NCBI GenBank assembly: GCA_023954745.1
Contig: JAGSHC010000047.1
Span: 1 to 32,951 of the forward strand
Direction: 5' to 3'
Length of the DNA: 32,951 bases
Source of the DNA: Deltaproteobacteria bacterium
Lineage (GTDB): Bacteria > Myxococcota_A > UBA796 > UBA9615
Shown here piece after piece: positions 19,794-23,768 of this stretch. A model generated the notes under the pieces. The model saw only the letters and a program-made list of their open reading frames with translations. It did not search any database and was not told the origin of the DNA. Numbering within the stretch: position 1 is the stretch's first letter; every line of letters begins with the position of its first letter. Position numbers and translations under genes: made by a program.

Positions 19794-19917
19794 GGGAGCT
19801 CTCCAGGACCTCGAAGATCGGCGGTTTAGGGCCCTTTCCGACCGTGAGGCCGAGGCTTCTAGATCAGGGCGTAGGGGTGGGTCAAGCCCCATCGCCCACC
19901 AATCCGGATCGCTCCGG

Positions 19918-19923
19918 TACCAT
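19918..19923 (+). promoter_or_regulatory. -10 hexamer TACCAT for the cyclophilin gene
   Basis: TACCAT about 38 nt upstream of ATG 19962, leaving a roughly 32-nt leader that contains GAGGAGG. A leadered counterpart to the leaderless promoters. Confidence 0.35.
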
Positions 19924-19961
19924 CCGCGCTTCGCGCCGCCCGGAGCGCGAGGAGGAATCCC

Positions 19962-20753
19962 ATGAAGAGCCTGCACGTCCTGATTCTCGCCGCCGCCCTC
20001 GCCCTGCCCATCTCCGCCTGCGGAGGAGGCGATGAAGCCGCGGAGAGCACTCCCGCCGCCACCAAGCCGGCCGAGAGCAAGCCCGCGAAGCCCGCCGAGA
20101 TGAAGGCCCCCGGCGCCGAGGCCAAGCCCGCCGTCGCCGACGCGACCCCGGACCCCCTCATCGAGGCCCGCAAGAGCTACCACCCCGCGCTGCTCGATCC
20201 GAGCAAGGCCACCGAGCAGGCGCCCGCGAAGTACACGGTGAAGTTCGAGACGACGAAGGGCGACATCCTCATCGACGTCACCCGCGAGTGGTCGCCCAAC
20301 GGCGCCGACCGCTTCTACAACCTCGTCAAGATCGGCTACTACGACAACGACATCGCGATGTTCCGCGTCATCTCAGGCTTCATGGCGCAGTTCGGCATCC
20401 ACGGTGACCCCGCAGTCAACACGGTGTGGCGCGCGGCGAAGATCGACGACGACCCCGTCAAGGGAAGCAACACGGCCGGCATGGTCACCTTCGCCATGGC
20501 GGGCCCCAACACCCGTACCACCCAGATCTTCATGAACCTCGTGGACAACAAGAACCTCGACGCCATGAAGTTCTCGCCCTTCGGCAAGGTCCAGAACATG
20601 GACGTGCTCGGCACCATCCACTCCGGCTACGGCGAGGGCGCCCCCCGCGGCCGCGGTCCGCACCAGGGCATGGTCCAGAGCAAGGGCAACCAGTACCTGC
20701 AGGCCAACTTCCCCGACCTCGACTACATCAAGAAGGCGTCCATCGTCGAGTAG
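19962..20753 (+). CDS. Lipoprotein peptidyl-prolyl isomerase, cyclophilin type
   Basis: A 263-residue lipoprotein: signal with lipobox ISAC (Cys20), then an Ala/Lys/Pro/Glu-rich flexible tether to about residue 60. The cyclophilin domain spans about 90-260: VKFETTKGDILIDV, GADRFYNLVKIGYYDN, FRVISGFMAQFG (the catalytic Arg-Phe block), TFAMAGPNTRTTQIFMNL and FSPFGKVQNMDVL. It should catalyse proline cis-trans isomerisation of exported proteins in the periplasm or on the surface. The Trp that binds cyclosporin in other members is not evident, as in many bacterial forms. Start has GAGGAGG about 7 nt upstream. Confidence 0.93.
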   Translation: MKSLHVLILAAALALPISACGGGDEAAESTPAATKPAESKPAKPAEMKAPGAEAKPAVADATPDPLIEARKSYHPALLDPSKATEQAPAKYTVKFETTKGDILIDVTREWSPNGADRFYNLVKIGYYDNDIAMFRVISGFMAQFGIHGDPAVNTVWRAAKIDDDPVKGSNTAGMVTFAMAGPNTRTTQIFMNLVDNKNLDAMKFSPFGKVQNMDVLGTIHSGYGEGAPRGRGPHQGMVQSKGNQYLQANFPDLDYIKKASIVE

Positions 20754-20805
20754 TCGTCGGGCCGGGCCGGAACTCCCCCGGACCCTAACGCGACGCTCCG
20801 TGGCA

Positions 20806-20834
20806 GGATCCCCTTCAATCCTTGGAGGGGATCC
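20806..20834 (+). promoter_or_regulatory. RBS-sequestering hairpin upstream of the MopE-like gene
   Basis: Perfect 9-bp inverted repeat GGATCCCCT (20806-20814) and AGGGGATCC (20826-20834) with an 11-nt loop. The right arm includes most of the Shine-Dalgarno (GGAGGGG, 20824-20830) and ends directly before ATG 20835. When folded it would hide the ribosome binding site. Confidence 0.6.
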
Positions 20835-23132
20835 ATGAACCGTCTCTCGCCGGCCTCTCTCGCGGGCCTGCTCGCAGTCAGCCTGACCGCGCTCGCCACG
20901 CCCGCCCTGGCCCAGACCGGTGGCCCCGACACCTTCGGCTACCGCTACTTCCCGGCGACCTACGATTGGGTCGATCTCAGCACACTTGGGGGCTCCGTCC
21001 CCACCACCATCGCCGGCAGCGGGGCCGAGACCGTCGCCCTCCCCTTCGGGTTCGACTTCTACGGAGTGACCTACAACTCCGTGCGCGTCGGCGCCGAAGG
21101 TGGGCTGAGCTTCGACGTCTCCGCCGGGATCCCAAGCGGCAACGGCTGCCTCCCGTCCACCTCCTCGGGCGCTCCGGACATCGCGGTGTTCTGGGATGAC
21201 CTGAACCCGCAGGTGGGCGAGATCCGCACCTTCCACGACTCGGCGAACAGCCGCTTCATCATCAGCTGGGAAGACGTCGCCCACGCCCCGAACAACGGGT
21301 CCGCCAGCTTCCAGGTGCACCTGTACGAGAGCAGCGACATCCAGTTCCACTACGAGGACGTGAACTTCGGGAACACGGTCAGCAACTTCGGCATCAGTGC
21401 CACGGTGGGTATCCAGGACAACACCGGCGGCACCATCCTCGCCGGCGACTTCCTCGAGTGGTTCTGCAACAGCCCCGTTCTGAGCGACGGCATCGCGGTC
21501 ACGTTCTCCTCGTGCGCGGACGACGATGGAGACGGCTTCACCGCGGACACCTGCGGCGGACCGGACTGCGACGACACCGACGCGGACATCAACCCCGACG
21601 CGGCCGAGGCCTGCGACGGGGTCGACAACGACTGCGACGGCGTCACGACGGACGAGAACGCGGACGAGGACGGCGACGGCGAGACCCCCTGCCAGGGCGA
21701 CTGCGACGATGGCGAAGCGCTGGTGCTCAGCACCGGCACCGAGGTGTGCGATGGCCTCGACAACGACTGTCTCAACGGGATTGACGACCCCTTCGACGGG
21801 GACGGAGACCAGTGGGCGACGTGCGTGGGCGACTGCGACGACGCCGACGCGAGCATCTATCCAGGCGCCCCGGAGATCTGCGACGGCGAGGACAGCGACT
21901 GCGACGGCACCACCCTCGCCAGCTACGAGAGCCCCGACGGCAGCCTCTTCACCACCGCGAACTCCTTCTACCGCGGCGGCATGTTCTCGCCGTCGGCCCC
22001 GACCTTCCTCGAGAACATCGAGATGTGGATCGACCCGGACGGCACCTTCAACAGCCCGCGCAGCGTGGTCTGGCTCGTGTACGAGGGACCGGACCCCACC
22101 GGCGACATGAACAAGATCGTGGAGCTGCCCCAGCAGATCCCGTCGTCCGGCGCTGGCTGGTACGCCTCGCCGCAGATGGCCGTCGCCATGCAGCCCGGCA
22201 TGTACTACTCCCTCGGCATCTGGTGGGACGGCGTCATGGGCTACGGCTACGAGACCAGCCCCATCTTCCCCGCCCCCACTGGCTGGGGCGAGCAGGTGGC
22301 CGGCTCCTCCCTCGGTCCCTGGACGTCCCCCCCCCCCATGGCCGGCAACCTCGACTCGAGCACGTCCTATGACATCCAGGTCATTACCGGCGGCGAGGGC
22401 GACTACGACGGCGACGGCGACCTCACCTGTGAGGACTGCAACGACACCGACGCCGCAGCGAGCAGTGGGGCCACCGAGATCTGCGACGGAGTCGACAACA
22501 ACTGCGACGGCATGCTCGCCCCGGCCGAAGGCGACGCCGACGGCGACGGCTACATCCCCTGCATCGACGACTGCGACGATGGCGACGACACCATCTACCC
22601 CGGCGCCCCCGAAGCGTGCGACGGCCTCGACAACGACTGCGATGGCACCGTGCCCGCTGACGAGCTCGACGGTGACGTCGACGGCTCCCCTGGCTGCGAG
22701 GACTGCGACGACAACGACAGCACCAACTTTCCCGGCAACACAGAAGTGTGCGACGGGCAGGACAACGACTGCATCGGCGGCGTGCCCACCAACGAGGCCG
22801 ATGTCGATCAGGACGGCGTGCGCCCCTGCGAGGGGGACTGCGACGACTTCTCGCCCCTCGCCACGCCCGACAATGAGACGGAGACGGACTGCGACGACAA
22901 CGTCGACAACGACTGCGATGGCGTCACGGACCTCACGGACCCGGACTGCTTCGGCGGCGGTGACGACGACGACGCGGCGGACGACGACGACCTCGGAGAC
23001 GACGACGACACCGGGATCCCGGATCCCGAGGGAGCGTGCAGCTGCAACAGCGACGTCTCGGACGGAGGGGGGAGCGCATGGTTTGCCACCCTCTTCGTTC
23101 TTCCCCTCCTGAGGCGGCGCCGCCGCAGGTAA
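20835..23132 (+). CDS. MopE-like multi-repeat surface protein with MYXO-CTERM sorting tail
   Basis: A 765-residue secreted protein. Signal peptide 1-26 (cleavage near ALA). An N-terminal beta-rich domain (about 30-225) resembles nidogen-like domains (VALPFGFDFYGVTYNSVRVG, FWDDLNP). Then MopE-type metal-binding repeats (CDGVDNDCDG, CDDTDADINP, CDGLDNDC) fill about 227-361 and again 523-704. A separate all-beta domain is inserted at about 361-522. The tail has a poly-Asp linker (GDDDDAADDDDLGDDDD) then CSC, a hydrophobic segment and an Arg run, a MYXO-CTERM signal cut by myxosortase. MopE of Methylococcus binds copper; the Asp loops here more likely bind Ca2+ or metals in general. The start has GGAGGGG buried in a 9-bp hairpin. 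Confidence 0.92.
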   Translation: MNRLSPASLAGLLAVSLTALATPALAQTGGPDTFGYRYFPATYDWVDLSTLGGSVPTTIAGSGAETVALPFGFDFYGVTYNSVRVGAEGGLSFDVSAGIPSGNGCLPSTSSGAPDIAVFWDDLNPQVGEIRTFHDSANSRFIISWEDVAHAPNNGSASFQVHLYESSDIQFHYEDVNFGNTVSNFGISATVGIQDNTGGTILAGDFLEWFCNSPVLSDGIAVTFSSCADDDGDGFTADTCGGPDCDDTDADINPDAAEACDGVDNDCDGVTTDENADEDGDGETPCQGDCDDGEALVLSTGTEVCDGLDNDCLNGIDDPFDGDGDQWATCVGDCDDADASIYPGAPEICDGEDSDCDGTTLASYESPDGSLFTTANSFYRGGMFSPSAPTFLENIEMWIDPDGTFNSPRSVVWLVYEGPDPTGDMNKIVELPQQIPSSGAGWYASPQMAVAMQPGMYYSLGIWWDGVMGYGYETSPIFPAPTGWGEQVAGSSLGPWTSPPPMAGNLDSSTSYDIQVITGGEGDYDGDGDLTCEDCNDTDAAASSGATEICDGVDNNCDGMLAPAEGDADGDGYIPCIDDCDDGDDTIYPGAPEACDGLDNDCDGTVPADELDGDVDGSPGCEDCDDNDSTNFPGNTEVCDGQDNDCIGGVPTNEADVDQDGVRPCEGDCDDFSPLATPDNETETDCDDNVDNDCDGVTDLTDPDCFGGGDDDDAADDDDLGDDDDTGIPDPEGACSCNSDVSDGGGSAWFATLFVLPLLRRRRRR

Positions 23133-23135
23133 CGT
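23130..23135 (+). promoter_or_regulatory. TAACGT hexamer, leaderless spacing to the subunit-3 gene
   Basis: TAACGT ends 6 nt before ATG 23142 and overlaps the stop codon (TAA, 23130-23132) of the MopE-like gene. It may give the downstream pair its own promoter. Confidence 0.45.
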
Positions 23136-23141
23136 CGGAGC

Positions 23142-23768
23142 ATGCAGACGACCCGACGACGCTTCCTCAAATACGGCCTGGGAGGAGTGCTGCTCCTCGC
23201 AGTGCCAGCCGTGGGGCTCAGCTTGCGTCGCTCCGTGCTCGTGGAACCGAAGAGCGCGCTGCTCACCTTCAGCCCGCGCCAATACTCGACCCTCACAGCC
23301 ATGGCAGACACTCTCTGCCCAGGTGGGGGCAAGCTGCCGAGCGCCAGCGACCTCGACATCGCGGGCACCCTCGACATGCTCTTCTCCCGCATGCACCCCG
23401 GCGTCGGCGCGGACCTCGCGGCCGCTCTGGATCTGTTGGAGAACGCCCTGGCCGGAGCCGTCCTCGACCAGCGGTTCCAGACGTTCACCGCCTGCGACGC
23501 GGACGTACGCGACGAGGTCCTGCGGGACTGGTCCACCAGCGCCATCACCCTGCGTCGCGCCGTCTACAAGGCGCTCCGCGGCTTCATCATGGCCGCCTAC
23601 TGGGGCAACGCAGCCACCTGGGGCGCCATCGGATATCCGGGCATCGCCGACTACTCCGCGGTCCCCTCCCCGCCACCCTTCGACGAGTACATCGCGGCTC
23701 TGACCCCCGAGCCGGAGCGTGGCGCCGACGACGAACCCGACAGCGAGCCTCAGGAGGCGAGCCCATGA
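23142..23768 (+). CDS. Gluconate 2-dehydrogenase subunit 3 family protein (Tat-exported)
   Basis: A 208-residue protein with a twin-arginine signal: MQTTRRRFLKYGLGG followed by a hydrophobic core. The mature part has the subunit-3 pattern: FSPRQYSTLTAMADTLCPGG, then DLDIAGTLDMLFSRMHP, and a helical domain ending in AAYWGNAATWGAIGYPG. In known complexes the small subunit escorts the flavin-bearing large subunit through the Tat system. The partner is the next gene, overlapping by 4 bp (ATGA), so translation is coupled. The C-terminus (EPERGADDEPDSEPQEASP) is acidic and probably flexible. The cytochrome c subunit of typical gluconate dehydrogenases is not present in the window. Confidence 0.88.
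   Translation: MQTTRRRFLKYGLGGVLLLAVPAVGLSLRRSVLVEPKSALLTFSPRQYSTLTAMADTLCPGGGKLPSASDLDIAGTLDMLFSRMHPGVGADLAAALDLLENALAGAVLDQRFQTFTACDADVRDEVLRDWSTSAITLRRAVYKALRGFIMAAYWGNAATWGAIGYPGIADYSAVPSPPPFDEYIAALTPEPERGADDEPDSEPQEASP

Follow-up and report, generated by a model that had tools for sequence, protein, structure and literature searches.

The start codon of a MopE-like gene in the window (the whole stretch of 32,951 nt analysed here) is directly preceded by a long and very stable hairpin that carries the Shine-Dalgarno (SD) sequence in one of its arms. This hairpin over the ribosome-binding site is confirmed as genuine, and it is longer than first noted. The reading that we tentatively prefer, with somewhat less than even confidence, is that only transcripts reading through from the upstream isomerase gene have their ribosome-binding site closed by the hairpin. 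In this proposal the gene would have its own promoter, whose -10 element (20804-20809) would sit at the base of the 5' arm and from which transcription would begin near 20816. The resulting mRNA would begin past most of the 5' arm, would be unable to form the helix and would be translated freely, while read-through RNA from the isomerase gene would form the helix and stay silent. Three points here are inferred: read-through takes place, silencing it is of consequence, and the helix arose under selection. A read-through silencer, or else a coincidence, is likelier than a metal or temperature switch.

The hairpin and its genomic setting

The hairpin, the MopE-like gene and the isomerase gene upstream of it all lie on the forward strand. 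The MopE-like gene (20835-23132) encodes a 765-aa secreted protein with a signal-peptide-like N-terminus, which matches Cu-binding_MopE (PF11617) with 194.5 bits against a cut-off of 27, the putative metal-binding motif being spread over six stretches. Its C-terminus (window 23040-23132) is made up of a linker rich in Asp, a Cys-x-Cys pair, a hydrophobic segment and a run of Arg residues, an arrangement that we take to resemble a MYXO-CTERM sorting signal. The MopE-type repeat is greatly expanded in the window's genome (G000), where 278 stretches match this one protein. The upstream gene, a possible source of read-through, encodes a cyclophilin-type peptidyl-prolyl isomerase (19962-20753, PF00160), and 81 nt separate its stop codon from the ATG at 20835. 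On the other side, within 10 nt of the 3' end of the MopE-like gene (window 23132-23142), follows a gluconate 2-dehydrogenase subunit 3-like gene and then a GMC oxidoreductase gene; in the sister genome (L230:17674-18697) a reverse-strand gene intervenes between the MopE-like gene and these two.

The perfect 9-bp arms first reported, GGATCCCCT (20806-20814) and AGGGGATCC (20826-20834), were correctly described, the right arm abutting the ATG. Both the inverted repeat and the folds indicate that the helix runs further inward, to 13 pairs joining 20806-20818 with 20822-20834, of which 12 are Watson-Crick and one is U-G (T20815-G20825). The loop is the 3-nt TCC (20819-20821), and the whole hairpin, GGATCCCCTTCAA-TCC-TTGGAGGGGATCC (20806-20834), is flush with the ATG. 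The claim that it buries the SD also holds: GGAGGGG (20824-20830), within the 3' arm, is computed to be 99.96% paired at 37 °C in an RNA holding both arms. The isolated hairpin folds with -21.1 kcal/mol, and the segment 20800-20845 has a z-score of -3.5, with none of 200 shuffles equally stable. Between the isomerase stop codon and the hairpin (20754-20800), structure is weaker and irregular, the fold reaching -20.2 kcal/mol over 47 nt. The helix, its stability, the burial of the SD and the absence of the hairpin from an ortholog (see below) are thus results of sequence inspection and computation.

Some RNA thermometers and riboswitches mask the SD, and the window SD is likewise hidden in a hairpin next to the ATG. 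Unlike those elements, the window hairpin is far too stable for melting by heat, its leader carries no ligand domain or Rfam match, and the gene's own mRNA probably does not contain the full hairpin. Since the SD is computed to be 97% paired even at 80 °C, we rejected an RNA thermometer; the temperature switch proposed earlier is not supported. A known RNA family was rejected as well: over 19900-21900, the best Rfam matches scored 14-22 bits against gathering cut-offs of 40-70.

The hairpin also stands out within its genome. The opening cost at the start of the window gene, 21.6 kcal/mol (positions -18 to +3, context -45 to +25), ranks 11th among 1270 sampled G000 genes, the median being 10.6 kcal/mol for the 1238 genes without MopE motifs. 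The sample covers about 1.75 Mb of 7.13 Mb, and genes near stretch ends were dropped before counting; because genes and starts were called by a simple caller using codon usage and SD, per-gene counts are approximate. Flush hairpins of at least 12 bp and -20 kcal/mol or lower occurred in five of 1259 G000 leaders and in none of 20 dinucleotide-shuffled sets, and those ending at most 30 nt before the start were also enriched (16 vs 1.7 in shuffles). The window hairpin is therefore more than chance. This excess is uneven between two gene samples: hairpins of -18 kcal/mol or lower ending at most 4 nt from the start were found at seven genes, the window gene among them, out of 976 in the first sample, and at none of 319 genes in the later G000 sample. 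The flush-hairpin group is moreover mixed, comprising TetR-type and MarR-like genes, a doubtful start (L170) and a probable fragment (L149).

The predicted promoter and the proposed read-through transcripts

The -10 element and the transcription start of the MopE-like gene are predicted. We used a -10 model learnt from 368 G000 leaders whose genes have a neighbour in divergent orientation, the window gene not being one of them. Because TA...T served as the seed of its hexamer, the model is not wholly assumption-free. The model reads roughly GG-TA(G/C)(C/A)(C/A)T-C, and no -35 element was visible or learnable in the same 368 leaders. For -10 scoring, as for the palindrome and opening-relief counts given below, only genes that have an upstream neighbour at a sufficient distance were counted. 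The top site of the window leader is CAGGAT (20804-20809, forward strand), which overlaps the base of the 5' arm and scores 7.02, the next site reaching 4.61. Among genes lacking an SD (n=141), 14 of 23 strong sites from -25 on place the hexamer at -12; we therefore put the predicted start 12 nt downstream of the hexamer's first base, as in leaderless genes, at 20816 (forward strand, about ±2 nt), near the top of the 5' arm. In G000 genes that have no SD, the motif GG-TA(G/C)xxT-C is most frequent 12 nt ahead of the start codon, a pattern that suggests many leaderless mRNAs in this genome.

A start inside the hairpin would leave the gene's own mRNA without most of the 5' arm. Opening the region from -14 to +3 costs 21.5-21.9 kcal/mol in RNAs starting at 20790-20805, 15.8 kcal/mol from 20808, 10.7 kcal/mol from 20811 and 6.4-6.6 kcal/mol from 20814 or later. 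With 60 nt of upstream context, the opening cost of the window start is 18.3 kcal/mol and falls to 6.5 kcal/mol when the RNA is shortened to its own predicted start, the median for 77 other genes treated alike being 7.5 kcal/mol. The burial of the SD noted in the preliminary description is thus upheld by computation for RNAs with both arms, whose starts cost about 18-22 kcal/mol to open, but not for the gene's own mRNA, which is predicted to lack most of the 5' arm.

Two observations count against the promoter reading. CAGGAT lacks the consensus T at position 1 (strong sites have T in 83% and C in 9% of cases), and in a global alignment of the window leader with that of its ortholog the two predicted hexamers fall in different columns. 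In its favour, the best site of the ortholog, CACCAT at -33, has almost the same position as that of the window leader; it scores 6.51, with the next at 2.13. Such scores are reached by 5.6% (window) and 6.5% (ortholog) of shuffled leaders, so that neither site alone is rare; both sites came within 3 nt of each other in one of 4000 shuffle trials, a figure to be read with the caveat that homologous leaders are not independent.

A precedent for read-through silencing comes from phage T4. For gene e (lysozyme), PMC3014915 describes longer early transcripts that form an inhibitory structure and late transcripts that start within it and do not; it presents the I-TevI and soc leaders as comparable T4 cases, and relatives of T4 as also varying in this structure. 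On that account, the likeness to the window is twofold: longer transcripts have their SD locked in a helix, as computed here for the window SD, and helix-free transcripts come from a promoter that overlaps the 5' strand of this helix, a promoter whose window counterpart is a prediction. Unlike gene e as described there, the window gene is cellular and its promoter is predicted, and its hairpin is not kept in the one syntenic ortholog. If transcription does start inside the hairpin, the window would hold a chromosomal, non-phage, promoter-coupled read-through silencer. A hairpin over a ribosome-binding site seen in raw sequence then need not be a switch, because short-leader genomes may never transcribe the 5' arm from the gene's own promoter.

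Related leaders and the question of recurrence

We found a single ortholog that also follows the isomerase gene; it lies in the same-genus genome G001 (L052, 62% identity). The preliminary description had looked to relatives for conserved arms, and in this sole syntenic ortholog they are absent (two leaders compared): the leader has an SD, GGGAGGGG, and lacks a matching arm. Opening the ortholog's start costs 12.1 kcal/mol, rank 74 of 213 in the G001 sample. Because the hairpin is absent there, we count this ortholog against a conserved silencer role. None of 18 other isomerase relatives, followed for about 1.5 kb downstream each, is directly followed by a MopE-like gene; one (L068) has a single short MopE motif at nt 1478, non-adjacent. 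The search drew on loci from 20 places, 19 of them outside G000, with 18 candidates scored per genome, and could have missed further orthologs.

A structured leader is no general feature of MopE-like genes either. The 17 MopE-like leaders of G000 have a median opening cost of 10.8 kcal/mol, next to the 10.6 kcal/mol of genes without the motif, and the 12 found in G001 are unremarkable too, so that a MopE leader element was rejected. The nearest ATG leaders at L018, L023, L024 and L033 (reverse strand) yielded no twin by eye. A repeated element was rejected as well, the exact outer palindrome being single-copy in G000; a relaxed search of this genome gave no second site within two mismatches, and sites with three mismatches were near the control count.

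These results bear on a translational switch acting in the gene's own mRNA, in which the transcript would start upstream of 20806 and a protein, antisense RNA or translation coupling would open the hairpin. The burial of the SD and the high rank of the opening cost speak for such a switch; its stability towards heat, its absence from the ortholog, the ordinary leaders of other MopE-like genes and the best predicted start, which falls inside the helix, speak against it. We consider it improbable, and the ion or protein switch of the preliminary description finds no support in the own mRNA. A switch operated by a bound protein may nevertheless act in a longer transcript.

The geometry that underlies the read-through proposal has one clear twin. 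At L196 (reverse strand), TAGCGT at -32 scores 8.3, a 12-bp helix spans from the third base of this hexamer to the ATG, and the opening cost falls from 32.1 to 5.3 kcal/mol in RNA from the predicted start. The gene (L196:13030-13635, reverse strand) encodes a 201-aa protein without a Pfam match and has the costliest start to open among the 1270 sampled genes.

Palindromes that take up the interval from -10 to ATG and measure at least 9 bp were found at three of 117 genes with a -10 score of at least 6.5, compared with 0.25 in shuffles. The window gene is one of the three, the other two being independent of it, and in each case the gene upstream is co-directional, as it is for 42 of the 117 overall. 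With at least seven pairs, the same 117 genes gave five interval palindromes, where shuffles gave 1.49 and randomly placed left boundaries 1.29; in G001 and other relatives, at least seven outer pairs occurred at one of 65 sites vs 0.75 in shuffles.

We also tested how far genes with costly starts are relieved by their own predicted starts. An upstream gap of 25 nt or more is present at 485 SD genes; opening costs at least 18 kcal/mol for 38 of them, and eight of these 38 have a -10 score of at least 6.5. In these eight genes the mean relief from the own start (10.8) is hardly above that from a borrowed start (9.5). An architecture shared by the window, L196, L191 and L190 and relieved by their own starts was withdrawn for L191 and L190, which stay closed, as does L250 from its own predicted start; moaA (L154) is a weaker case, its 3' arm differing in the G001 ortholog. 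The relief test accordingly leaves L196 as the one clear twin and does not support a general class. We regard it as unlikely that this myxococcote, whose mRNAs seem to include many that are leaderless or have a very short leader, insulates some short-leader genes by palindromes between -10 and start codon, with the window gene and L196 as two members. Under such insulation, the promoter DNA itself would encode the anti-SD arm, and transcripts derived from upstream would be silenced while promoter-started ones would not.

The same data bear on an accidental or neutral, lineage-specific inverted repeat, arising for example through template-switch copying of the SD arm and having no selected role. 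Such a palindrome could be tolerated if the mRNA starts inside it or if low expression is harmless. Because the only ortholog does without the hairpin, an accident is quite possible, though well short of probable. It is in keeping with the lack of a second copy in G000, with the absence of flush hairpins from the later sample and with the unsupported general class. The rarity of such hairpins in shuffled leaders argues against it, as does a helix that fills the interval from -10 to ATG, here as in L196.

A possible DNA operator or 3'-end hairpin

The palindrome may alternatively act as DNA. A repressor dimer would then bind the 13-3-13 inverted repeat over the -10 element and the start, and the RNA fold would be a by-product; on sequence alone, such an operator would be indistinguishable from the present arrangement. 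Its position over the predicted -10 and start fits this idea, as do two genes of the same genome, one TetR-type (L216:9881-10588, reverse strand) and one MarR-like (L214:10878-11414, reverse strand; Pfam scores just below curated cut-offs), which have near-perfect palindromes of 15 and 16 bp, respectively, at or just before their start codons. These two palindromes are probable autoregulatory operators, and the window palindrome is similarly long, near a promoter and close to an ATG. It differs from them in that a scan of 15 out of the 28 genes called in the window turned up no regulator family, in that it lacks a second site in the searches described above, and in that it holds an SD inside one arm. 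An operator function is in our view unlikely.

Finally, the hairpin may belong to the 3' end of the isomerase transcript, as a terminator without U-tract or as an RNA stabiliser that overlaps the next ribosome-binding site by chance. Hairpins are indeed enriched after G000 stop codons (31 of 410 tails vs 1.45 in shuffles), starting 7-50 nt past the stop; the window hairpin starts 52 nt past that of the isomerase gene and lies outside the 80-nt tails counted. A canonical intrinsic terminator, with GC-rich stem and T run, was absent in the terminator scan, the tail being ATGAACCG, and a 13-genome study reports that a poly-U trail can be dispensed with (PMC8355165). Termination at this hairpin would, however, also cut off the transcript of the MopE-like gene, though only one coming from upstream. 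A terminator is less likely because the window hairpin, with its tail ATGAACCGTC, lacks the CTTG that is frequent after 3'-end hairpins in this genome. Taken together, we hold a 3'-end role to be quite improbable.

The CTTG tail deserves mention in its own right. Across the G000 stretches (the window, L149-L228 and L249-L288), TTTT followed none of the 43 strong hairpins that lie up to 70 nt past a stop codon. CTTG, mostly as CTTGG, followed 13 of these 43, as compared with 12 of 503 hairpins within genes and 12 of 103 at other places; in G001 it followed one of seven 3'-end hairpins vs two of 102. CTTG may perhaps be a terminator signature of this lineage.
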